Assembly (NCBI GenBank): GCA_030645995.1
Contig: JAUSMU010000125.1
Coordinates: forward strand, 1-38,958
Length of the DNA: 38,958 nucleotides
Reading direction: 5' to 3'
Source: Gammaproteobacteria bacterium
Lineage (GTDB): Bacteria > Pseudomonadota > Gammaproteobacteria > Pseudomonadales > Pseudohongiellaceae
The notes under the pieces are model-generated. The model made no database searches and was not told the origin of the DNA. It saw only the letters and a program-made list of their open reading frames with translations. Of the stretch, positions 2,217-24,584 are shown piece after piece; the first letter of the stretch is position 1; every line of letters begins with the position of its first letter. The translations under genes and the position numbers were made by a program.

Positions 2217-3227
2217 TCAGCTGAGTAGATTCATCCGCTCCAGCCTTGTTCGCCCGGCAGTGGTCAGCAGACCGACAGCGTCCATGTTCAGCGTCAGCTG
2301 ACGGAAGCGTTGCCGGTTGAGCTCCGGGTGCTGCAGGCGATAGCGGCGCAGATGGCGCCGCAGCTCCGCCAGATCCCACCCCTTCGCCAGGCCGATACGG
2401 TTGTAGATATTCAGAGAATTGGCCAGCCGCAGGACATTGTCGAGCACGAAGCGGCTGCGCTCCTCCAGTGCGGCCTCATCCAGCGTCGCCAGATGTTCGC
2501 GCAGGAACTCGACCCCGAAGCGAACGTGCCGAGCCTCGTCACGCAAGATGTAATCGATGGCGAAGCGCAGCACCGGCACGCGCGTATTCTGGCGCAGCTC
2601 CTGAAAGCGGGCCATGGCGAGACTCTCGATGAGTATCTGGCAGGAAATGAATTTCATGTCCCAGCGCGGCTCGTCCACGCATTCGTGTATGAGGTTCATC
2701 AGCGCGTTGCTGGGGGGCGGAATTTCTCCGCCCAATTCGTGCAGATAACGGGAAAAGAATTCCACGTGCCGGGCCTCATCTGCCACCTGGGTACTGGCGA
2801 ACAGTTTGGCCTCGACAGTGGGCAGGCACGACACCAATTGCGAGGCGATCAGCATGGCCGCCTGTTCGCCGTGCAATAGCTCCGCAATCTCCAGGCGATG
2901 CTGCCACCAGCTCAAGCGCCGCCGCTCGGCTTCCGGCAGGCGATCATAATCCGGAAATCCCAGCAGCGGATTGCCTTCGTCGCTGGAAGGAAAATGTGCA
3001 GCCGCGCTGTCCCGCTCCCAGGGGATATCGGTGTTGGCGTTCCACTGGCCGGCCTTCGCGAGTTCATACAGGCGGTGAATCGGCGTTTTGACTTGCGGGT
3101 AGTGCCAGGGGATGACGCCGTTCATTTCGGCGCTGAACTCTGAATGCTGGGAGGCGTGCTGAGAAGTCTGGTCCGGCGCGTCAGCTGTCTGGCGCAGTTG
3201 CTTGTTGAGCGGGCTGTGTATGAGCAT
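2217..3227 (-). CDS. Ferritin-like diiron protein, AurF (p-aminobenzoate N-oxygenase)-like
   Basis: Two E-X28-DEARH motifs (GEQAA...VADEARHVEFF and IESLA...LRDEARHVRFG). Start chosen at 3227 because AAGGAGG lies just upstream; the supplied ORF extends to 3299. Confidence 0.75.
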   Translation of the reverse strand: MLIHSPLNKQLRQTADAPDQTSQHASQHSEFSAEMNGVIPWHYPQVKTPIHRLYELAKAGQWNANTDIPWERDSAAAHFPSSDEGNPLLGFPDYDRLPEAERRRLSWWQHRLEIAELLHGEQAAMLIASQLVSCLPTVEAKLFASTQVADEARHVEFFSRYLHELGGEIPPPSNALMNLIHECVDEPRWDMKFISCQILIESLAMARFQELRQNTRVPVLRFAIDYILRDEARHVRFGVEFLREHLATLDEAALEERSRFVLDNVLRLANSLNIYNRIGLAKGWDLAELRRHLRRYRLQHPELNRQRFRQLTLNMDAVGLLTTAGRTRLERMNLLS

Positions 3228-3259
3228 GGCAATCCTCCTTGAAGGTCTCACTTGAAGAT

Positions 3260-3278
3260 CTTGTGACGGTCTTGTGAC
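3260..3278. repeat. Direct repeat CTTGTGAC x2, 11-nt period, in divergent intergenic region
   Basis: cttgtgac at 3260-3267 and 3271-3278. Confidence 0.5.
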
Positions 3279-3336
3279 TTGTCCAGTTAACGTAAGCATA
3301 GTCCGGATTTTGCATTCGCGCCCGACGCTGCCCGAT

Positions 3337-3365
3337 TTGACGATTTTTAATTCTCTGCCTATAGT
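3337..3365 (+). promoter_or_regulatory. Putative sigma70-type promoter for the FAAL operon
   Basis: TTGACG - 17 nt - TATAGT, about 105 nt upstream of the FAAL start. Confidence 0.6.
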
Positions 3366-3392
3366 CGATTCACAAGCTCAGATTCGTACAAA

Positions 3393-3411
3393 CCCTCTCA
3401 GGAAGAGAGGG
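3393..3411 (+). promoter_or_regulatory. Short hairpin in the predicted 5' UTR of the FAAL operon
   Basis: CCCTCTC-AGGAA-GAGAGGG: perfect 7-bp stem with 5-nt loop. Confidence 0.4.
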
Positions 3412-3469
3412 ACGAGAGCTCTGTGATTTCTCTGTGTCAGTTGTTCATGTCAGCTCAAGGATGAAACCC

Positions 3470-5143
3470 ATGCCCAAGGATCGGGATCTGCTTTCGCTTT
3501 TTGAATCTCGCCTGCACTCACAGCCCGATATGCCGCTGTATTCCTTTCTGGATCGCGATGGTGCTGTCAGTCAGTCTCTTACCGTTTCCGCTCTCTTCGT
3601 GCAGGCACGCGATCTTGCCGAAGTCCTGCAGGCTTATGGTCTGAAGCACCAGCCCGTGGTGCTGCTGTACCCTCATGGCAGTGAGTTCATCGTGGCCTTC
3701 TTCGCTGCGCTGCTGGCTGGCGCATATCCCGTGCCGGTCGCCCGGCCAAGGGGGCGGGACTGGCGCGTGCTGATGGGAATTATCCGTGCGAGCAGGGCCG
3801 GTGCGCTGTTGACGCTGAGTGCCACAGCGCGACATCTTCCAGCGGAGCTGACTGTCGGTGATCCACTGCAAATAGTCCACACCGACAACCTCCATACGCG
3901 TCGTACAGACCGAATGGCACGGTGGCAAAGACCCGTCCCGGAGTCTCGGGACATCGCCTTTATCCAGTACACCTCAGGGTCCACGTCGGCACCGAAAGGC
4001 GTGGAGATCACGCACGCCGCCATCCTGCACAACTGCGAACTGATCGCACAGGCGTTTGCGTGCTCGGGTGCAGATATCGGCGTGAGCTGGCTGCCCTTCC
4101 ATCACGACATGGGCCTGATTGGCCATGTCATCACGCCGTTGTACTGCGGCATTCACAATTATTTTCTGGCGCCATCGGACTTCGCAGCCAAACCGGTGCG
4201 CTGGTTGCAAGCCATCTCCCGTTATCGGGGCACTATCAGTGGCGCGCCGGACTTCGCCTATGAGCACTGCCATTCGCGAGTCATCGAGGAAGAGCTGGAG
4301 GCGCTGGATCTGCGCAGTTGGCGTCTTGCCTATTGTGGCGCGCAAAGAGTGTCAGCGGACACGTTGAGAAAATTCTCGGCACGGTTTGGACGCAGGGGAT
4401 TTGCCGAGCAGGCATGGCATCCCTGCTACGGACTGGCGGAGGCGACGCTCTATGTGTGCAGTCGCCAGGGGCTTCACACCCATAGACAGCAAGGCAGGCT
4501 TCGTCAAACAGAACGCGAGGACGTGAGTATTGGCCAATTGGATGGGCGCGTGGACATTCGCATTGTGGATACAGAAGCGGGTGGTGAAGTCGCGGAGGAG
4601 GAGGTCGGCGAGATTCTGGTGCGCTCTGCCGCGCTGGGCAATGGCTACCATAGAGATGCGGTGAGCACCGCAGCGACTTTCGACGTCAGCATGACTGGTT
4701 TCCTGCGTACCGGCGATCTGGGCTATATCCATGAGGGTGATCTCTACTTCACGGGGCGTTGCAAGACTTTGATCAAGAGGCGCGGGCGCAGCTTTCATGC
4801 GGAGGACATCGAGGCCGAGGTGGAGGCGCTGTTGTGCGACAAAGGGGTGCAGCGCAGCGCTGCCTTCGAGCTGAATCCGGATGCGGCGGACTCGCTGGTC
4901 ATCTTGCTGGAAGCCGATGGCAGCGTCGATCCCCGGCTTATTGAACTCAGTATTCCAGTTCTGCAGTCGCGGTTGTGTCAGACGCCGGGGATTCTCGCCA
5001 CCGACATCGTGGTGGCCCCTCGGCACAGCCTGCCCTTGACCAGCAGCGGCAAGCTGCAGCGCATGCGTTGTCGGGAGCGCTATCTGGCGGGAGACTATTC
5101 AATTCGATCCGACAAGGAGTGTGAGCATGCAAAGGAATGTTGA
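3470..5143 (+). CDS. Fatty acyl-AMP ligase (FAAL) family adenylate-forming enzyme
   Basis: AMP-binding motif YTSGSTSAPKGVEITH. FAAL-type segments GAPDFAYEHC, LRSWRLAYCGAQRVSADTLRKF, CYGLAEATLYV, RTGDLGYIHEGDLYFTGR. AAGGA 8 nt upstream of ATG 3470. Confidence 0.9.
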   Translation: MPKDRDLLSLFESRLHSQPDMPLYSFLDRDGAVSQSLTVSALFVQARDLAEVLQAYGLKHQPVVLLYPHGSEFIVAFFAALLAGAYPVPVARPRGRDWRVLMGIIRASRAGALLTLSATARHLPAELTVGDPLQIVHTDNLHTRRTDRMARWQRPVPESRDIAFIQYTSGSTSAPKGVEITHAAILHNCELIAQAFACSGADIGVSWLPFHHDMGLIGHVITPLYCGIHNYFLAPSDFAAKPVRWLQAISRYRGTISGAPDFAYEHCHSRVIEEELEALDLRSWRLAYCGAQRVSADTLRKFSARFGRRGFAEQAWHPCYGLAEATLYVCSRQGLHTHRQQGRLRQTEREDVSIGQLDGRVDIRIVDTEAGGEVAEEEVGEILVRSAALGNGYHRDAVSTAATFDVSMTGFLRTGDLGYIHEGDLYFTGRCKTLIKRRGRSFHAEDIEAEVEALLCDKGVQRSAAFELNPDAADSLVILLEADGSVDPRLIELSIPVLQSRLCQTPGILATDIVVAPRHSLPLTSSGKLQRMRCRERYLAGDYSIRSDKECEHAKEC

Positions 5144-5423
5144 AGAAGCAGTACAGCGGCGGGTGTTGGATGCATTGAAAGACATCTGTCGACAACGCGG
5201 CCAGGCCGTGGACCCGCAACCTGATACTACAATCGGTGCTTTGGGGCTGGAGTCGCTGCAGTTGGTGGAGATCGTCTTCGAGTTGGAGACCTGCTATCAG
5301 GTGCAGGTCGACGAAGAACAACTGGCGCAACTGGAAAGTGTGGCAGATGTGATTGAGATGTTTAGCGACGCACTGCAGAGGGCTTCGCAGCAAATGGCTC
5401 CGCAGCAGGAAGCAACCGTATGA
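5127..5423 (+). CDS. Acyl carrier protein (phosphopantetheine attachment site)
   Basis: 98 aa acidic protein with GLESLQLVEIVFELE. AAGGAG upstream of ATG 5127. Overlaps the FAAL 3' end. Confidence 0.9.
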   Translation: MQRNVEEAVQRRVLDALKDICRQRGQAVDPQPDTTIGALGLESLQLVEIVFELETCYQVQVDEEQLAQLESVADVIEMFSDALQRASQQMAPQQEATV

Positions 5424-6682
5424 ATACGAGGATCGCAGCAGCGCGCCTGTTGATGGAGGCCGGTGCCGCCCATCGCGACGGCAATTATGCCGAGGCGCTG
5501 TCTTTGACGTGCAAGGCGCTGGAGCAGATGTTTGCCCGTCGCGAGCCGTCGGTGATTCGTGCGCTGTTGCGTGAGTATCCGTGGCCCTCTGGTGCGACCC
5601 GGCTGCTGCATACCGAGGTCGGTCCGCGTATCGAATTGAGTCCGCAGGATTTTTGCGCCGAGGCAAGCAGACAGTTTCTCGACTACGCGGCTGGGATGCC
5701 CGTGTGGTTCTCGCGCAGGACGCTCGTGGAGGCTGTCTATGTGTTCCTGCAGAGAAGGGCCGCTGATTGTCTGGAGAGCGCCTTGGCAATAAAGCAACAA
5801 CAACGGATTCTGCTCTGCCTTCACCGACTGCGTGCGCCGTTGCAATCCCGCCTGCCCGCTGCGGCTGCACACCGAGAAGCTGTGATTCTGGGACTGAGCC
5901 CCTTGCTCCATGAACCGCACGCGGCGCTGCGTCGACTGCTGCAGCAGCACGACTTCTATTTCGAGTACAACTATGCCAAGCGTTGCGAGCATGACGCGGC
6001 CGCAGAGTCGCTTCCTGCTCAGCCAAGGTTTGTGTGGCCGGACAGGGAAGCCTATGCAGCACTGGTGCGACGGCATCCGGGTTCCCGTGTGTTGGTGACG
6101 ATTCACATGGGGGATTTTGTGGGCGCCTTCCGGTGCATAGCCGAGCAGGTCGAAGACGGGCGCACAGTCATGTCGCTGCAACGCGAGAGTCGGTCACCGG
6201 AGGCGGACGCGCCCGGTGCAGCGCTGCATCTGCAGGTGTTGAGGCATGGAGCAGACGCTCCCGCTGAGGCCGTGGCGGGACTGCGAAAAGGCGACCGGAG
6301 TCTGGGCGTGCTGTTTGATCTGAGGGACGATTTCGGCACGACGACGGAGGTCATGTTTTTTGGTTGCAGGGCTCATCTCGTCAAAGGTCCGGCGCTGCTG
6401 GCCATTATCGGGCGGGCTCCGATCATTCCCTTTGTCACATGGGAATGCGCTGGTGTCGATGTGATTGAAATGGAAGACCTGATCGACACGCGGGTGCTGC
6501 ACGGTGAGTCCGTGGGAATGGCCGCCACCCGCATCACACAGCGACTCGCGCTGCTCGCAGAGCGCTGGATAAGACGTGCACCGGCACAGTGGAAATATCT
6601 CCCTGCACTGCCTGGCTACTGTCACCGCAATAGCAGACTGAACGGTCAGGTGACCGCGCTTGCGCCAGGGGGGCACGCATGA
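5420..6682 (+). CDS. LPLAT / HtrB-LpxL-like acyltransferase family protein
   Basis: H-X4-D motif in VTIHMGDFVGAF followed by LGVLFDLRDDFGTTTEVMFFGCRAHLVKGPALLAIIGRAPIIPFVT. ATGA overlap with the ACP gene. Confidence 0.75.
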   Translation: MNTRIAAARLLMEAGAAHRDGNYAEALSLTCKALEQMFARREPSVIRALLREYPWPSGATRLLHTEVGPRIELSPQDFCAEASRQFLDYAAGMPVWFSRRTLVEAVYVFLQRRAADCLESALAIKQQQRILLCLHRLRAPLQSRLPAAAAHREAVILGLSPLLHEPHAALRRLLQQHDFYFEYNYAKRCEHDAAAESLPAQPRFVWPDREAYAALVRRHPGSRVLVTIHMGDFVGAFRCIAEQVEDGRTVMSLQRESRSPEADAPGAALHLQVLRHGADAPAEAVAGLRKGDRSLGVLFDLRDDFGTTTEVMFFGCRAHLVKGPALLAIIGRAPIIPFVTWECAGVDVIEMEDLIDTRVLHGESVGMAATRITQRLALLAERWIRRAPAQWKYLPALPGYCHRNSRLNGQVTALAPGGHA

Positions 6683-7923
6683 GCCAGAGCTTGTTCAGAG
6701 AAGAGGCGCTGCTGGCGACGACCGGTGAGCGGTTCGGTGCAGCGATGTTTTATCAGCCGCCCGCCGTGCGCCTGTTCTGCGTTGGAATGCTGCTGACTTT
6801 CATGGGGTTTCTCCTGTTCGCGGGATTCGCCGGTTTCAAGCGGACGGAAGTGGCGCGCGGGCAACTCAATCCGCTTGCCGGAGCCGTGAAAGTCTATGCG
6901 GCGCGTGTCGGCGTCTTGCAGGAGATCGTCGCTCGCGAGGGGCAGCGCGTGGATGCCGGGCAGCGACTCGCCGTCGTGTCGGCACGTCAGTTTGATCAGG
7001 AAGGCGGAGCGACTCTTTCTTTCCTGTTGCAGCAGGTCGACAGTCAGCTGCGACAACTGGAAGACGAGATACAGCTGGCTTGTGAGACGGCGGCCTTGGA
7101 AAGTGAACAGTGGAGGCAGAAAGTATCGGCACTGCAAGCCGAGCTGGTGCTGTTGGGTGATCAGCAGGAACTTATCGAGAGCCGCCGCTCGCTCAGCGAA
7201 CAGGATTATGCGCGCAGCAGCCATCTGCACAAACAGGGAATGCTGCCCGATTCCCTGCTTGATCAGCAGCTGGACAAACTCTACAGCGCGCGGCAGTTGA
7301 GCCGCGTGAATCTCCTGCAGATCGAAACGCGCGGACAGGTACTGGCGGAGGCACAGCACCAACTGGCAATGCAGCCTCTGCAATTGCGGCGCGAGTTGCT
7401 GGAGCTGGAACGCGCGCGTTCGCAGCTGCTGACCCGCCGCAAGGAAATCGAGACACAAGGCGCCTTCGCGGTGACCGCCCCGGCGGCGGGCGTCATCAGC
7501 AATCTGCTGGCCACACAAGGCGACACGCTGGAACCGAATCAGCCACTACTCAGCCTGCTGCCTGCGGACAGCCAGTTGGAGGCGTGGCTCTATCTGCCCT
7601 CGCGGGCGCGGGGCGAAGTGGCCCTGCAGCAGGAAATCATGCTGGCCTACGATGCCTATCCCGTGCGCACCTTCGGTGCGTTCCCGGCCACGGTGACGTT
7701 TATTGCCGACACGGTCATGGACCCGCGTGAGGTCGCTCTGCCTCACGAGCTTCGCGAACCGGTGTATCTGGTGCGCGCTCGATTGGGCAAGCAGACGATC
7801 GAAGACACGGCGCTGGAGCGCCTGCGGCCGGGCATGCAGTTTAGTGCGCAGATCGTCACGGCGCGGCAAACCCTGCTGCAGAGAGTGTTCGCCCCGCTGG
7901 GCAGTCTCGGGAGAAAACTGTGA
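6679..7923 (+). CDS. HlyD-family (CvaA-like) membrane fusion/secretion accessory protein
   Basis: N-terminal TM segment, RGQLNPLAGAVKVYAARVGVLQEI lipoyl-like half motif, coiled coil, VTAPAAGVISNLLATQGDTLEPNQPLLSLLP. ATGA overlap with upstream gene. Confidence 0.9.
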   Translation: MSQSLFREEALLATTGERFGAAMFYQPPAVRLFCVGMLLTFMGFLLFAGFAGFKRTEVARGQLNPLAGAVKVYAARVGVLQEIVAREGQRVDAGQRLAVVSARQFDQEGGATLSFLLQQVDSQLRQLEDEIQLACETAALESEQWRQKVSALQAELVLLGDQQELIESRRSLSEQDYARSSHLHKQGMLPDSLLDQQLDKLYSARQLSRVNLLQIETRGQVLAEAQHQLAMQPLQLRRELLELERARSQLLTRRKEIETQGAFAVTAPAAGVISNLLATQGDTLEPNQPLLSLLPADSQLEAWLYLPSRARGEVALQQEIMLAYDAYPVRTFGAFPATVTFIADTVMDPREVALPHELREPVYLVRARLGKQTIEDTALERLRPGMQFSAQIVTARQTLLQRVFAPLGSLGRKL

Positions 7924-10025
7924 TCGCGGCACTGTTCGCCACCCGGCACCGGCTTCCGGAAGTACTGCAGTCAGAGCGGACGGAGTGCGGGCTTGCCTGC
8001 CTGTCCATGGTGGCGTCGTACTATGGCAAACATATCGATCTGAATACCTTGCGCCGGGACTATGCGGTGTCTGCACGCGGCGCGGGCTTGAATGACCTGT
8101 TGTCGATTGCCAATGCGCTGGGTCTGCAATCCCGGCCACTGCGCCTAGAATGCGACGAACTCGCTCAGCTGCAGTTGCCGGCAATTCTGCACTGGGACAT
8201 GCACCACTTCGTCGTCCTGCGCAGTGTGTCTGCCAAGGGCGTGGTTATTCATGATCCGGCGGTCGGCAGGCGCGAATATTCCCTGCGCGAGCTGGGTCGG
8301 CACTTCACGGGCGTCGCCATCGAGTGCGTGGCTGGCAGGGCTCTGGAGCCCGAGCGGCGGGAGCTGCGGTCGCGGCTGTTCGATCTGTTCAGTCGTTACC
8401 CCGGCTTCAATATGGCGGTCGCGCAGCTCTTCATTCTCTCCCTGCTTCTGCAGCTATCGTCGATCGGCACCGCGTTCTACCTGCAGCTGGTGATAGATGA
8501 GGGCATCACGAAGCTCGACGCCGATTTCCTTGCCATGCTCGCCCTCGGTTTCTTTCTGCTGGCACTGACCAGTGTGGGGATGAGCAGCGCCCGTGCCAGC
8601 GTGCAGCTGTATTTCTCCAATCAACTGGGCTTTCAGATGGCGGGCAACGTATTCCATCATCTGATCACGCTGCCCACGGAATTTTTCGGCAAGCGCCACG
8701 TCGGCGATCTGGTCTCCCGCTTCGGTTCCATTCGCGAAATCCGCAACATCCTGACGGAAGATCTGATTACCGTGGTGCTGGATGGGACACTCGCGTTGCT
8801 GACGCTGCTCGTCATGTTTTACTTCGACGCCGTGCTCGCGGCGGTGGTGCTGACGTTCGTCGTGCTGATAGCGACGCTGCGGCTGGCGATGATTCCGACG
8901 GTCAAATCACTCAGCGAACAGCGCATCGTGGCGGAAGCAAAGTCCAGCACCAGCTTGATGGAAAACATGCGCGCCATCGAGGTCATCAAATTTTATTGTC
9001 GAGAGCTGCCGCGCGCTCTGCTGTGGCGAAATCAGTATGCCGAGCAGGTCAACGCCAATGTGCAGCTGACACGGGTGATGATCCGGATCGATGCCGCGCA
9101 CGGTTTGTTGAGCGGTCTGGAGAATGTGCTGGTGATTTATCTGGCGGCGCTGGCGGTTCTGGAAGGTTCTCTGTCGCTGGGTTTTCTCACCGCGTTCATC
9201 GCCCTGAAGAGCAATTTTTCGTCGTCCATTCGTTCCTTCATCGAGAAACTGGTGCAGATCAGATTGCTGCGCCTGCAATTGGAACGGGTGTCTGACATTA
9301 CCTGCGCCCCACGCGAGTTCGACACGCTGTATCTGCCGAAATTGCGCGTGCCGGTGCAGGGGCGGCTGCAACTGGAAGGGCTGGAATATTGTTATCCGGG
9401 GTGTCGCATACCGGTCTTCCGGGAGGTCGATCTGGAGATCGCGCCGGGGGAGGTTGTCGCTATCACAGGCCCGTCCGGTGTCGGCAAGTCCACGCTGGTG
9501 AAGGTGATGGCGGGGCTGCTGTTGCCGACCTCAGGCGTTGTGCGCGTCGATGGTGTCGACATCCAGGCGTTTGGGCTAAGGCAGTTTCGCACCGCCTGCG
9601 CGGGAGTGCTGCAGAGCGACCAGCTGCTGTCGGGAACTCTGCAGGACAACATCACGCTGTTTGCCGACGAGGTGGATCAGGAGCGCCTGCGGCGGGCCTG
9701 TCGCATGGCGCAGATCGATGAGTTCATCGCCACCTTGCCGATGGGCTGCAACAGCCTGATCGGTGACATGGGCTCCATAATGTCTGCAGGACAGGGGCAG
9801 CGCGTGCTGCTGGCGCGGGCCTTCTATGCGCAGCCGCGCATTCTGTTTCTGGACGAAGCTACTGCCAACCTCGATCTACAGGTCGAGAGTGCAATTCTGA
9901 GGGAGATCCGTGCGCTACAGGTCACGACGGTCATGATCACCCACCGCACGGCACCGCTGGCGATTGCCGACACGGTGTTGTGCTTCAGCGAGGGGCGTCT
10001 GACGAGAAGCAGTGAGCGCCTATGA
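7920..10025 (+). CDS. Peptidase-containing ABC transporter (PCAT; C39 peptidase + TMD + NBD, CvaB/RaxB-like)
   Basis: C39 motif LQSERTECGLACLSMVASYYG, later HHFVVL and IHDPAVG. Walker A GPSGVGKST, signature SAGQGQRVLLARA, Walker B ILFLDEATANLD. GTGA overlap with HlyD gene. Confidence 0.93.
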   Translation: MIAALFATRHRLPEVLQSERTECGLACLSMVASYYGKHIDLNTLRRDYAVSARGAGLNDLLSIANALGLQSRPLRLECDELAQLQLPAILHWDMHHFVVLRSVSAKGVVIHDPAVGRREYSLRELGRHFTGVAIECVAGRALEPERRELRSRLFDLFSRYPGFNMAVAQLFILSLLLQLSSIGTAFYLQLVIDEGITKLDADFLAMLALGFFLLALTSVGMSSARASVQLYFSNQLGFQMAGNVFHHLITLPTEFFGKRHVGDLVSRFGSIREIRNILTEDLITVVLDGTLALLTLLVMFYFDAVLAAVVLTFVVLIATLRLAMIPTVKSLSEQRIVAEAKSSTSLMENMRAIEVIKFYCRELPRALLWRNQYAEQVNANVQLTRVMIRIDAAHGLLSGLENVLVIYLAALAVLEGSLSLGFLTAFIALKSNFSSSIRSFIEKLVQIRLLRLQLERVSDITCAPREFDTLYLPKLRVPVQGRLQLEGLEYCYPGCRIPVFREVDLEIAPGEVVAITGPSGVGKSTLVKVMAGLLLPTSGVVRVDGVDIQAFGLRQFRTACAGVLQSDQLLSGTLQDNITLFADEVDQERLRRACRMAQIDEFIATLPMGCNSLIGDMGSIMSAGQGQRVLLARAFYAQPRILFLDEATANLDLQVESAILREIRALQVTTVMITHRTAPLAIADTVLCFSEGRLTRSSERL

Positions 10026-19704: not shown

Positions 19705-20850
19705 TCACTGCAGCGTCGTCCGCGCGAGTTGTTCCATGGGTTCACGCATGCAGTCGTGCAGCACCTTGCCGAGATCGGCGACGCCGGGGGCCAGCTCGAC
19801 GCGGTGGCCGAGCACGCGGGGTAGCAGTGTCTCGATGTCCTCGGCGCTCACGAAGCTGCGGCCGCGCAGGGCGGCCAGCACCTGCAGGGCGGGCATCAGC
19901 AACACCATGCTGCGGGTGGAGTTGCCCTGCAGCACGCGCTCGTCGCTGCGCAAGTTGCGGGAGATATCCACCAGCGCGGTCTTGATGGCGCGGGCGATTA
20001 CCACATCCTGATCGATCACCTCGCGAGCCATCAGCACCTCGCTGCGGGTCACCTGGTGGAGTGACCCGTGAGCCCGCTGCTGACTCTGATCGCGGCGCGT
20101 CTTGTAGGTGTCCAGCACATCCAGCTCGGCGTCGCGTTCGATGTGCTTCATCGTGATCTTGAACAGGAAACGGTCCAGCTGCGGCGTGGGCAGCGGATAG
20201 GTGCCCACCAGGTCGAGCGGGTTCTGGGTCGCAATCACGAAGAACAATTTGTCCAAACGGTAGGTGGTGTTGTCGACCGTTACCTGCTTCTCGCCCATGG
20301 CCTCCAGCATCGCCGACTGCACCTTCGGCGAGGTGCGGTTGATCTCGTCCGCCAGCACGACATGCGCGAACAACGGACCGTGGCGGAAATGGAAGCTGTT
20401 GGTGCTGGTGTCGAACACCGAGCCGCCGGTCACGTCCGAGGGCAGCAGGTCTGGCGTGAACTGGATGCGGCGGAAGGGCACGATGGCGGCAGCGACGTCG
20501 TCGGCCTGCTCTTGCAGTGGCGTGATGATCGCCTCGCCCAGCGCCTTGGCGAGTGTGGTCTTGCCGGAGCCGGGGAAGTCTTCCAACAGCACGTGGCCGT
20601 CGGCGATCAGCGCGATGATCGCCAGCTCGATGACATCGTCACGTCCCAGCACCTGGCTGCGCACGGCGCCGCTCAGACGGTTGAGGACCGCGACGGCCTG
20701 TTGCAGGCGCGCGGATTGCGCGGCGACGCCTGCGGGGGCAGAGGTCGTCAGCGCTTCGCTTCTGTCGGCCGTTTCTGTCACTTCTACGTTCTCGTTTGCG
20801 CTCTCGATTGTGCTCTCAATTGCGTTCGCGCTTGTGGCTTCCAGGGTCAT
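19705..20850 (-). CDS. MoxR-family AAA+ ATPase
   Basis: LLEDFPGSGKTTLAKALG, RIQFTPDLLPSDVTG, GPLFAHVVLADEINRTSPKVQSAMLEAMGEKQVTV, ATQNPLDLVGTYPLPTPQLDRF. Confidence 0.96.
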   Translation of the reverse strand: MTLEATSANAIESTIESANENVEVTETADRSEALTTSAPAGVAAQSARLQQAVAVLNRLSGAVRSQVLGRDDVIELAIIALIADGHVLLEDFPGSGKTTLAKALGEAIITPLQEQADDVAAAIVPFRRIQFTPDLLPSDVTGGSVFDTSTNSFHFRHGPLFAHVVLADEINRTSPKVQSAMLEAMGEKQVTVDNTTYRLDKLFFVIATQNPLDLVGTYPLPTPQLDRFLFKITMKHIERDAELDVLDTYKTRRDQSQQRAHGSLHQVTRSEVLMAREVIDQDVVIARAIKTALVDISRNLRSDERVLQGNSTRSMVLLMPALQVLAALRGRSFVSAEDIETLLPRVLGHRVELAPGVADLGKVLHDCMREPMEQLARTTLQ

Positions 20851-20925
20851 TCAGGGTCTCCGGACTACTTGGTTTTCTCTAAGGTCTGTGTATTGAAAAG
20901 GTTGAGACGGTCGGCGGACGTCGGG

Positions 20926-23175
20926 TCAATGCGTCCTCAACCATGCAAAGGGATCGAGGACGGCGAGCACGCGCTTCCACCAGGGAATGTGGCTGCCGAT
21001 TTCTTCGCGGATGCGGTTTTGCAGGGCTAGCCAGTCGGGGGTGGCCGTCGTTGCAGCGTGATCCTGAGCTTGATCGGGAGCGTGTGCCAAGGGCAATCGC
21101 GGCTGGGCCTTTATGCCCTCGGGTACGCTCCCACAGGGGCCCAGGGCGGCGTAGAGGTGGGAGGCGGTCATCGTGGCGAAGGATGGGGTCATCGTGCTGA
21201 GGCGGCGGGCGAAAGCCTCGCGGCTCTCGCCGTAGCGGCGGCGCTGGCCCAGTGCGGAGAGCATGTCCAGGGTGGCGCGGTAGCTCAGGCGGTAGCGCAG
21301 CGCCGGATCGGCAAATTGTGGGGCGCGCAGGCGGTAGACTTTCACGACGTAACCACCCAGCAACGCGAGCAACAGCGCGGCGACCAGCGTCTGCACCAGC
21401 ACGGTCAGCGGGAATGGCTCGTCCTGCTGGGAGCTGATGAACTCGTCGAACGCAGCCTCGTCGCGCAGCATGTCGCCGAGCAGCTGCTGCAGGCTGTTCT
21501 GCGGGTCCACGGACATGTCCACCAAGGTGCGCCCCGGGGCCGGATCGACGATCACCCAGCCCACGCCGTCCAGAAAAATCTCCGGCCAGGCATGACCATT
21601 GATGGCCTGAATCAGCAGCGAAGAGCCTCCGGCGCGATTGCTGGCCGGCACCGAGTAGCCGATGCCCACGCGGGCCGGGATGCCGATACTGCGGTACATG
21701 TAGGTGGCGGCGAAGGAGAAGTGCATACAGTAGCCGGTCAGGTCACCGAACAGGAACGAGGCTGCCGGGTCCTCGGCATAGGCGTGTTCATTCTTGTGGC
21801 TGTAGCTGCCGTTGCGGTCGAGGTAGTCCTTGATCGCCAGCGCCTTGGCATAGGGATCGTCGGCATAGCCGGGGCGCAGGTCCTGCAATATGGTCTCGGC
21901 CAGTTCGCGGTAGCGCGGGTCGTCGGGCAGCTCCAGATAAGCCTGACGCTGCGCGGGCGTCCAGTCGGGATCACCGGCGGTACGGCCTATCAGATCGGGA
22001 AATTCGAGCAGCGGCACCATCGAGTAGGCGTCGTAGGTCTGTTTGAAGCGCAGGTTGTTGGGGTTGGGCGTGTTCTCGAAGGCCACCGGCGTGTCCAGCC
22101 CGAACGGCGTGCGGTGCGGGGCGAGCAGGCCGATGGTGGTGCGCACAGCCTGACGCTTGTCCGGCAATGGCAGCGGCTCTTCGATGTCGGCGCGTACGGG
22201 CGGGAAGTGCGTGATCAGATCTTCATCGAGATCATCCCGGTCCGTCACCGCCAGTATGGTGCCATTGAATTCGGTGTAGGCGGATTCGCGGAAATAATAC
22301 GAGCCACCGGCTGGCTCGTAGTCATCGCGGAACAGCACGATGGCCACAGGGGCCTCCTTGTCGCTGGCGTCATTCTCGCCATCGCGGAAGGGGTTGTCCT
22401 GCTCGGCCGCACTGCCTTCGGCGCGCGCGGCACCGGTCAAGCCCAGGTCGTCGGTCAGGCGTGGGGAGGGCAAGCCGAACAGTTGCACGTAGGCCAGCAG
22501 GCTGAAACACAGCAGCCCCAGCACGGTGAAGTGATAGGGCAGGCGGCGGTGATTGTTCTCCATCATCAGCAACCCGGCAAGAGCCAGCACCGCTCCGCAG
22601 CCCAGCGCCATGAGGATGGAGCTGGGGTCGATGCCACGGGTGAGGGCGTAATCGCCGATGAAGAAGGGGCGGTGAATCATGCCCTGCCGATGTGCGGCCA
22701 GGGTGATGACGAAGGCGGCGGCGACAAACAGGATCTCCGTCACCCGGCCATAGCTGGTGCGATGCGCGAGGGTGCGCAGCAGGGCGGTCAGCGCGGCGGC
22801 GAACAGGAACCACTGCAGGACCTCGCCGATCTCATAGGTCAGCAGCGGGGGAATCAGGCTGGCGATGGTCAGGCTGCCGGTGATGACGCTACTCAGGAAC
22901 ACGCCGACGCACAGCAGCACCAGGGTGAAGACGGCGATCACGCTCAGGCGCAGGTCCCGCAGGGGCGGGCGGTTAATAAGCCCGTCGATCAGGTAGCAGG
23001 AGAACAGGCAGCCGACGAAGGCCGCCACCGAACCGCTCTCGCTGGTCAGCGACAGGCTCAGCACCCAGTAGCTGGAGGCAATGATCGCCGCCCGCAGGCT
23101 GGAGGGCAGCAGCTGGCTGAGGATGGAGTCCTGTGATGTCGTCTGTGTTCTGTTGTGCATGTGCGTGTCTCTCAC
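20926..23175 (-). CDS. Transglutaminase-like domain membrane protein (TgpA-like)
   Basis: N-terminal multi-TM region, then GDLTGYCMHFSFAATYMYRSIGIPARVGIGYSV, GHAWPEIFLDGVGWVIVDPAPG (Cys-His-Asp). GTGA overlap with DUF58 gene. Confidence 0.92.
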   Translation of the reverse strand: MRDTHMHNRTQTTSQDSILSQLLPSSLRAAIIASSYWVLSLSLTSESGSVAAFVGCLFSCYLIDGLINRPPLRDLRLSVIAVFTLVLLCVGVFLSSVITGSLTIASLIPPLLTYEIGEVLQWFLFAAALTALLRTLAHRTSYGRVTEILFVAAAFVITLAAHRQGMIHRPFFIGDYALTRGIDPSSILMALGCGAVLALAGLLMMENNHRRLPYHFTVLGLLCFSLLAYVQLFGLPSPRLTDDLGLTGAARAEGSAAEQDNPFRDGENDASDKEAPVAIVLFRDDYEPAGGSYYFRESAYTEFNGTILAVTDRDDLDEDLITHFPPVRADIEEPLPLPDKRQAVRTTIGLLAPHRTPFGLDTPVAFENTPNPNNLRFKQTYDAYSMVPLLEFPDLIGRTAGDPDWTPAQRQAYLELPDDPRYRELAETILQDLRPGYADDPYAKALAIKDYLDRNGSYSHKNEHAYAEDPAASFLFGDLTGYCMHFSFAATYMYRSIGIPARVGIGYSVPASNRAGGSSLLIQAINGHAWPEIFLDGVGWVIVDPAPGRTLVDMSVDPQNSLQQLLGDMLRDEAAFDEFISSQQDEPFPLTVLVQTLVAALLLALLGGYVVKVYRLRAPQFADPALRYRLSYRATLDMLSALGQRRRYGESREAFARRLSTMTPSFATMTASHLYAALGPCGSVPEGIKAQPRLPLAHAPDQAQDHAATTATPDWLALQNRIREEIGSHIPWWKRVLAVLDPFAWLRTH
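21095..21135. repeat. Single REP-like arm embedded in the transglutaminase CDS
   Basis: Reverse complement TGTGGGAGCGTACCCGAGGGCATAAAGGCCCAGCCGCGATT; encodes CGSVPEGIKAQPR in frame. Confidence 0.88.
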
Positions 23176-24584
23176 ACCCGGTTCATGCGTTTGTCATAGG
23201 TCAGCCCGGTACGCCGATCTACAACCATGGTCGATTCTACAAGTTGACCGAGTTCCGTCAACAAACGGCTCAGCTCGACGACAGAAGTCGCCTGTCCCTC
23301 GCGTTCGCGCAGTTCACGGTTTGCGGCACTGTCGTTGAACAGCAGCTTCTGCCAGCGTGGGCGCGGCTTGCTGGTAATGAAACCATCCGTCGCCAGCACC
23401 ACCGAGAAGCGCACCCGGAAGCGCCCGATGGTCGCGCGCAGCTGTTGCAGCCAGGGCCCGGTTTCGGCATTCGCAAAGACGATACAGTGCACACTGCCCT
23501 GATTGCCGAAGTGCTGCAGGTACTGGTCGAGTCCGTAGGCGTGCAAGCCGTCCAAAGCGCGCGATTGCGCGATCAGCTCCAGCGCCTCGCCCGTCTGATT
23601 AGTCGGTGTGTCGCCGCCGTCGGCGCAGAACAGCCAATCCTCCCCCAGCGCACCGGTCTCCACCGCGACGCGGGCGACGGCTGCCGCCGCCTCGTCGTGG
23701 GGGCCGGACAGCAGGTAGGCGAGCGTGCGGTTGCTGTGAAACACGCTGCGCTCCGCCAACCGCACGGTCAGGTGCCGGTTGCGCGCATAGACCTTCCACA
23801 TGATGTTGCGCACGGAATCGCCCGGCACATAGGGTCGAATCTCCATACGGTCGCCCTCGGGATGGCCACCGGGGTCGGGAATCCCATCTTCGGACGTGAG
23901 TGAGCGCAACAGAGGTAATGACTTGATGCTGCCGGCCTGCGGCAGCGCCAGCAACTCCCCTTCCTGTGTGAAGCGCCAGGAGAAGCGGCTGAAGCCCAGC
24001 ACGTCGCGCACCGTGAAGCGGCGGGTGATGGTGGGGCTCTTGCAGCGCCGCAGCGGGACGATTTCTTCCTCCCACTGCTGCTCGTCTTCGGACAGACGGT
24101 TGTGAGTCCGGATCGCGTCCGGGCGCACAATTTCCCAGCGCACGCTGATCAACGGCAACCATGGCATGGTGGGCATGGTGAAGCCGGTTTCGTTCGGGTA
24201 ACCCGCCTCCACCTTCATGCGGGCGATGTGGCGTTTCAGAATCACCTGGCGCTCTAGCTGATCGACGATCTGATAGCGCAGCAACAGGCCCCCGAGCAGC
24301 ACGATCACCGTGGAGAACAGGACGATGGCGAGCGCGCAGACGGCGAGCGCGAACACCACCAGATCCATGCGGCCGTAGCCGAAGGTCCGCAGCGCGAACA
24401 TGGCGATGACCAGCACAGCGACGCCCTGCACGGTGAGCGGGAAGCGGTCGCGCAGCAGGCCAAGCAGCTGGCTGACGAGCGCTCGCCACGACTGTGCGCG
24501 AGTCGCACCCTTGTCAGTCGATGTCTGCTGCTGGCGAGGGGAGAGCGCCTCGCCGGAACCACTGTGGTTGGTTCGTAACTGCAT
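23172..24584 (-). CDS. DUF58 domain-containing protein
   Basis: Two TM segments, FTVRDVLGFSRFSW, GDRMEIRPYVPGDSVRNIMWKVYAR (DUF58 core). Confidence 0.92.
   Translation of the reverse strand: MQLRTNHSGSGEALSPRQQQTSTDKGATRAQSWRALVSQLLGLLRDRFPLTVQGVAVLVIAMFALRTFGYGRMDLVVFALAVCALAIVLFSTVIVLLGGLLLRYQIVDQLERQVILKRHIARMKVEAGYPNETGFTMPTMPWLPLISVRWEIVRPDAIRTHNRLSEDEQQWEEEIVPLRRCKSPTITRRFTVRDVLGFSRFSWRFTQEGELLALPQAGSIKSLPLLRSLTSEDGIPDPGGHPEGDRMEIRPYVPGDSVRNIMWKVYARNRHLTVRLAERSVFHSNRTLAYLLSGPHDEAAAAVARVAVETGALGEDWLFCADGGDTPTNQTGEALELIAQSRALDGLHAYGLDQYLQHFGNQGSVHCIVFANAETGPWLQQLRATIGRFRVRFSVVLATDGFITSKPRPRWQKLLFNDSAANRELREREGQATSVVELSRLLTELGQLVESTMVVDRRTGLTYDKRMNRV

Follow-up and report, generated by a model that had tools for sequence, protein, structure and literature searches.

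A conserved fatty acyl activation and peptide export unit in Pseudohongiellaceae as a candidate acylation system for class II microcins

Our analysis of a 38,958-nt stretch of DNA (the window, from the genome designated G000) indicates that six genes near its start probably form a secretion system of the class II microcin type that incorporates an acylation module. The link between this cassette and peptides with a double-glycine (GG) leader is strong. We propose more tentatively a specific scheme, in which microcins would be O-acylated on a C-terminal serine by an LpxL/PatA-fold transferase, with a diiron-tailored fatty acid supplied via a fatty acyl-AMP ligase (FAAL) and a dedicated acyl carrier protein (ACP), and one cassette would serve a set of unlinked precursors.

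The six genes and their families

All six ORFs in the window were open, and the families named for them in the original prediction were matched. The ferritin-like diiron oxidase gene (2217..3227) lies on the minus strand, divergent from the operon; its ORF opens at 3299 and ATG 3227 is the likely start, because a good ribosome-binding site (aaggagg) lies upstream. The stretch separating the two divergent start codons (3228..3469) presumably holds both promoters. On the plus strand, the FAAL gene (3470..5143) opens at GTG 3434 and likely starts at ATG 3470, given aagga upstream and agreement with the start of a homologue. It is followed by the dedicated ACP (5127..5423; ORF opening at GTG 5121, conserved Ser in GLESL), the LpxL/PatA-fold acyltransferase (LPLAT, 5420..6682), which has an extra N-terminal domain of ~130 aa and HMGDF in place of HX4E, the HlyD-type membrane fusion protein (6679..7923) and the PCAT (7920..10025), a C39 peptidase and ABC exporter with an intact Cys/His/Asp triad. 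The predicted consecutive overlaps were recovered as 17 bp between FAAL and ACP (with the ACP starting at ATG 5127), ATGA, ATGA and GTGA. Further along the window, a minus-strand row of genes (19705-24584) encodes MoxR-type ATPase, transglutaminase-like and DUF58 proteins that are unrelated to the acyl and export unit.

The FAAL gene matched the AMP-binding family (2e-58), and its best curated and PDB matches were FAALs, placing it with these rather than with CoA ligases. The ACP matched PP-binding (2.5e-9) and the PCAT matched Peptidase_C39 (1.2e-35), the triad being conserved in the homologues aligned. These family matches support the predicted activation by FAAL and ACP, the acyl transfer step and HlyD/PCAT export. 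The acyltransferase gave a weak match to the lipid A/PatA-type family PF03279 (1.9e-5), and its AlphaFold model (pLDDT 86) matched PatA (2e-9) and LpxM (8e-7) by Foldseek. Its HMGDFV box keeps the His and lacks the acid at +5 of the canonical HX4(D/E) motif; nearly all members carry an Asp at +3, and HX4E is kept in LpxL-like proteins of relatives.

The description of the diiron protein as AurF-like holds in part. It matched AurF PF11583 (6.6e-15) and carries a 4Glu-2His diiron pattern, with invariant ExxH pairs and further Glu. However, the AurF-type ligand set includes an additional His, expected four positions ahead of the Glu in the last ExxH pair. Here that position is occupied by Ile, and the predicted fold is nearest to R2-like ligand-binding oxidase (R2lox), followed by CmlI and aldehyde deformylating oxygenase. 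Relatives of ~36 % identity occur in SAR86, Halieaceae and Actinobacteria without the cassette; the diiron protein therefore belongs to a wider family, and its gene was rejected as a marker of the system elsewhere.

Conservation, spread and loss of the unit

A genome-neighbourhood check, which the original prediction had proposed, found all six genes, with their order and divergent layout unchanged, in approximately 20 Pseudohongiellaceae genomes of genera g1 and g2, at no fewer than four unrelated chromosomal sites; they are thus conserved as one unit, and no described product was found for them. Across 99 family genomes the acyltransferase was bimodal, with 47 at E ≤4e-31 and none between 4e-31 and 1e-10. 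The diiron gene was present in 21 of the 99, mostly fragmented assemblies in which absence can reflect an assembly gap, and 20 of these 21 also had the acyltransferase. The exception, G112 (L291:3545-6552), keeps diiron protein, FAAL and ACP and has lost LPLAT, HlyD and PCAT, and its peptide is still Ser-ended. Genus g102 has the unit in part, with diiron protein, FAAL and LPLAT on a short contig (L051), and a form with four genes, LPLAT-ACP-HlyD-PCAT, occurs in genus g3. As g3 and the outgroup described below do without FAAL and diiron protein, we regard these two as accessory.

Outside the family the acyltransferase is rare, occurring in 2 of 369 class genomes, the window's own included, and order-level matches were weak. 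When the outgroup acyltransferase was used to query the class, in a search run without a positive control, no match was obtained. Plasmid-borne copies were also sought and discounted, as only partial FAAL or PCAT matches covering ≤6 % of the query were found.

Some further arrangements were observed. In G249 (L282:798-3940) the FAAL is followed directly by HlyD-PCAT, with the ACP and LPLAT missing between them. The g3 four-gene form is preceded by conserved small proteins, DUF1330 and YbjQ-like (L057:8711-9435 and equivalents). The protein that follows its PCAT (L057:14152-14832 and g3 equivalents) had no Pfam match and by eye resembles a REP-associated tyrosine transposase; it is possibly a domesticated transposase.

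Four genomes of the window's genus (G198, G204, G213 and G236) have kept HlyD-PCAT at 60-64 % identity, and LPLAT, ACP, FAAL and diiron gene are absent from that locus; no LPLAT or diiron gene match was found anywhere in these genomes. As the PCATs of these exporter-only genomes nest inside the six-gene clade, the sequences suggest that all four acyl genes were probably lost together in this lineage. The peptides found in three of the four genomes end in RD.

GG-leader precursors and their terminal serine

Since the C39 triad is intact in the aligned homologues, a leader peptide should exist. TIGR01847 recovered canonical GG leaders in g3 genomes, a profile of those retrieved more across the family, and a second profile identified the G000 peptide. 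In total, 95 distinct GG peptides were found in family genomes, with a double-glycine leader of the class II microcin type (MRELTxEEMEQVxGG); some lie beside the exporter (L035, L039, L042, L043, L044 and L049), and most are unlinked. The original prediction had stated that the window holds no ribosomal (RiPP) precursor. Our search of the 38,958 nt likewise found none, but the statement is misleading, as G000 has a precursor elsewhere in its genome and relatives have precursors next to the cassette. The G000 peptide, on contig C196, reads MRTLGMNEIEMVSGG and then LDIH...WWDPAGYYNRS, ending in Ser; precursors in this genome were sought by profile only, and this single one was found, at E 0.007. 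Its gene has a ribosome-binding site, a hairpin resembling a terminator (z -4.5) and, as neighbour, a CAAX-protease-like protein of PF02517. The closest relative of G000, G224, has two such peptide/PF02517 pairs, and several precursors adjoin small membrane proteins or PF02517 proteins. PF02517-type proteins, such as SilX, have been studied beside bacteriocin genes, and we consider these neighbours candidate immunity factors. A second type of GG peptide in g3, which contains TVTFGTP and lacks a terminal Ser, was also seen (L171:660-869, L205:1431-1652 and L220:1428-1619).

The comparison of C-terminal serine with ACYLTRANSFERASE covered these 95 peptides and found Ser at the end of 58 of 70 in acyltransferase-positive genomes and of 8 of 25 in negative genomes (p 5.9e-6), with a frequency of 9 % in the conserved-ORF background. 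One doubtful ORF was dropped from later tests. When the negatives were split by exporter presence, which was done after the first test and not before, Ser endings were found in 0 of 10 peptides from genomes with an exporter, 7 of 11 where no exporter was found and 1 of 3 where the exporter lay at a contig edge. We explain the seven as relics or assembly gaps. The contrast between 58/70 with the acyltransferase and 0/10 with an exporter but no acyltransferase had a p of 3.9e-7, and counted by genome it was 33/41 versus 0/10. The first profile contained Ser-ended peptides, but the association holds outside g3, where matches fell mainly on the leader (28/35 versus 4/19, p 3.7e-5). The peptides are related by descent, and collapsing homologues, which reduces the effect of kinship without removing it, gave 25/34 versus 0/7 families at 45 % identity (p 5e-4) and 8/12 versus 0/7 at 30 % identity (p 0.013).

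Individual lineages were also compared. Within one peptide family, the ending is WWDPAGYYNRS or SRS in G000 and G224 versus WWDPAGYYSGC or WWDPAGYYD in g103, where the acyltransferase was not found. The acyltransferases of L039, L047 and L049 have an altered HxGD box and accompany non-Ser peptides, which count as one observation and not three because these peptides are related to each other. In an outgroup, from a distant family of the order, a GG peptide that ends in Ser is encoded next to PCAT-LPLAT(HFGDF)-HlyD. However, 12 of the 70 peptides in acyltransferase-positive genomes are not Ser-ended (e.g. in G208, G232, G240 and G251); Ser is therefore not strictly required, and we treat it as a candidate acylation site.

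Proposed pathway, alternatives and known systems

The proposed pathway would begin with the FAAL adenylating a free fatty acid and loading it onto the dedicated ACP, where the diiron protein would probably oxidise or desaturate the bound chain. The LpxL/PatA-fold acyltransferase may then transfer the acyl group from the ACP to the precursor peptide, the presumed acceptor, while the GG leader is still on its N-terminus. Because the N-terminus stays covered by the leader until export, we propose acylation at the C-terminal end, where the terminal Ser would most likely carry the chain as an O-acyl ester. HlyD-PCAT would cut after Gly-Gly and export the mature lipopeptide, presumably via TolC. Most precursor genes are unlinked to the cassette, so that a single cassette can act for several peptides. 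The mature peptides are putatively antibacterial.

The original prediction envisaged a stand-alone fatty-acyl small molecule, made and exported by the unit; on this reading GG peptides would use another exporter. Despite the lack of a precursor in the window, this now appears very improbable, as the C39 triad is conserved in the homologues aligned, and genomes of the family carry GG peptides with immunity-like partners, one of them in G000 itself; in relatives, GG peptides lie beside the PCAT. Another possibility is that the product of FAAL, ACP, LPLAT and diiron protein is a separate lipid, such as a modified membrane lipid protecting the producer, with HlyD-PCAT alone handling the peptides. 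The fold of the acyltransferase would suit this, since the known acceptors of PatA and LpxM are glycolipids, but Ser endings track the acyltransferase and not the exporter clade, and in the outgroup the acyltransferase is flanked by PCAT and HlyD, with a GG peptide alongside. We consider a separate lipid improbable, though less so than the stand-alone molecule.

A somewhat less unlikely alternative accepts that the module acts on GG peptides, but on a different residue (Lys or a Ser/Thr within the chain) or by adding some other group carried by the ACP, so that the C-terminal Ser would be a recognition feature. The 12 of 70 peptides that coexist with the module without a terminal Ser are consistent with this, and acylation of Lys is known among acylated RiPPs such as the nostolysamides. 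However, without terminal chemistry it is difficult to account for the recurrence of Ser at the last position across so many mature sequences that are unrelated. Acylation at the C-terminal Ser thus remains the hypothesis that we favour.

The closest parallels are with the class IIb (siderophore) microcins such as MccE492, which share the GG leader, a PCAT with a membrane fusion protein, one exporter for several peptides, extra enzymes acting on the C-terminal Ser and a chromosomal location (PMC10233263). These microcins carry an enterobactin derivative on that Ser, and so provide a precedent for chemistry at this position (PMC10233263). In the present system, by contrast, the extra enzymes are FAAL, ACP, LPLAT and diiron protein, and the precursors are mostly unlinked to the exporter; no siderophore attachment genes were found among the six genes or the other genes of the window that were scanned. 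Class IIa microcins (MccV) share the GG leader, C39 exporter, HlyD-type fusion protein and neighbouring small membrane protein, but their peptides are without such modification and acyl genes are lacking.

Fatty acylation of ribosomal products has other parallels. Selidamides and nostolysamides are ribosomal peptides with a fatty acyl group, although in nostolysamides the acyl is on a Lys of a lanthipeptide, whereas here the candidate transferase has an LpxL/PatA fold and would be fed by FAAL and ACP, and no lanthionine enzymes were seen. In RTX toxin systems, HlyC modifies a ribosomal product in an acyl-ACP-dependent step ahead of HlyB/HlyD-type (type I) export; the present unit differs in its acyltransferase fold, its C39 peptidase, which is predicted to be active, and its small GG peptides in place of RTX proteins. 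The JamABC-type analogy originally drawn extends to the stand-alone FAAL and ACP and an oxidative step on the bound chain, and to nothing beyond these, as here there is no PKS or NRPS, the diiron protein is soluble and ferritin-like, and a peptide exporter lies downstream. A search of open-access papers found no description of a fatty-acid-tailed microcin or of this cassette arrangement, and no ribosomal peptide pathway using FAAL-ACP chemistry came up in a term search of a FAAL review from 2025.

The small gene set suits a direct test by mass spectrometry. Sister genomes that have naturally lost the module provide ready controls. The pairing of a terminal Ser with LPLAT gives a rule by which to locate unlinked precursors that would escape cluster-based mining. 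If the proposed pathway is correct, FAAL-ACP chemistry would be placed in a ribosomal peptide pathway, and lipid attachment would join the modifications of Gram-negative microcins by a route unlike that of siderophore attachment.
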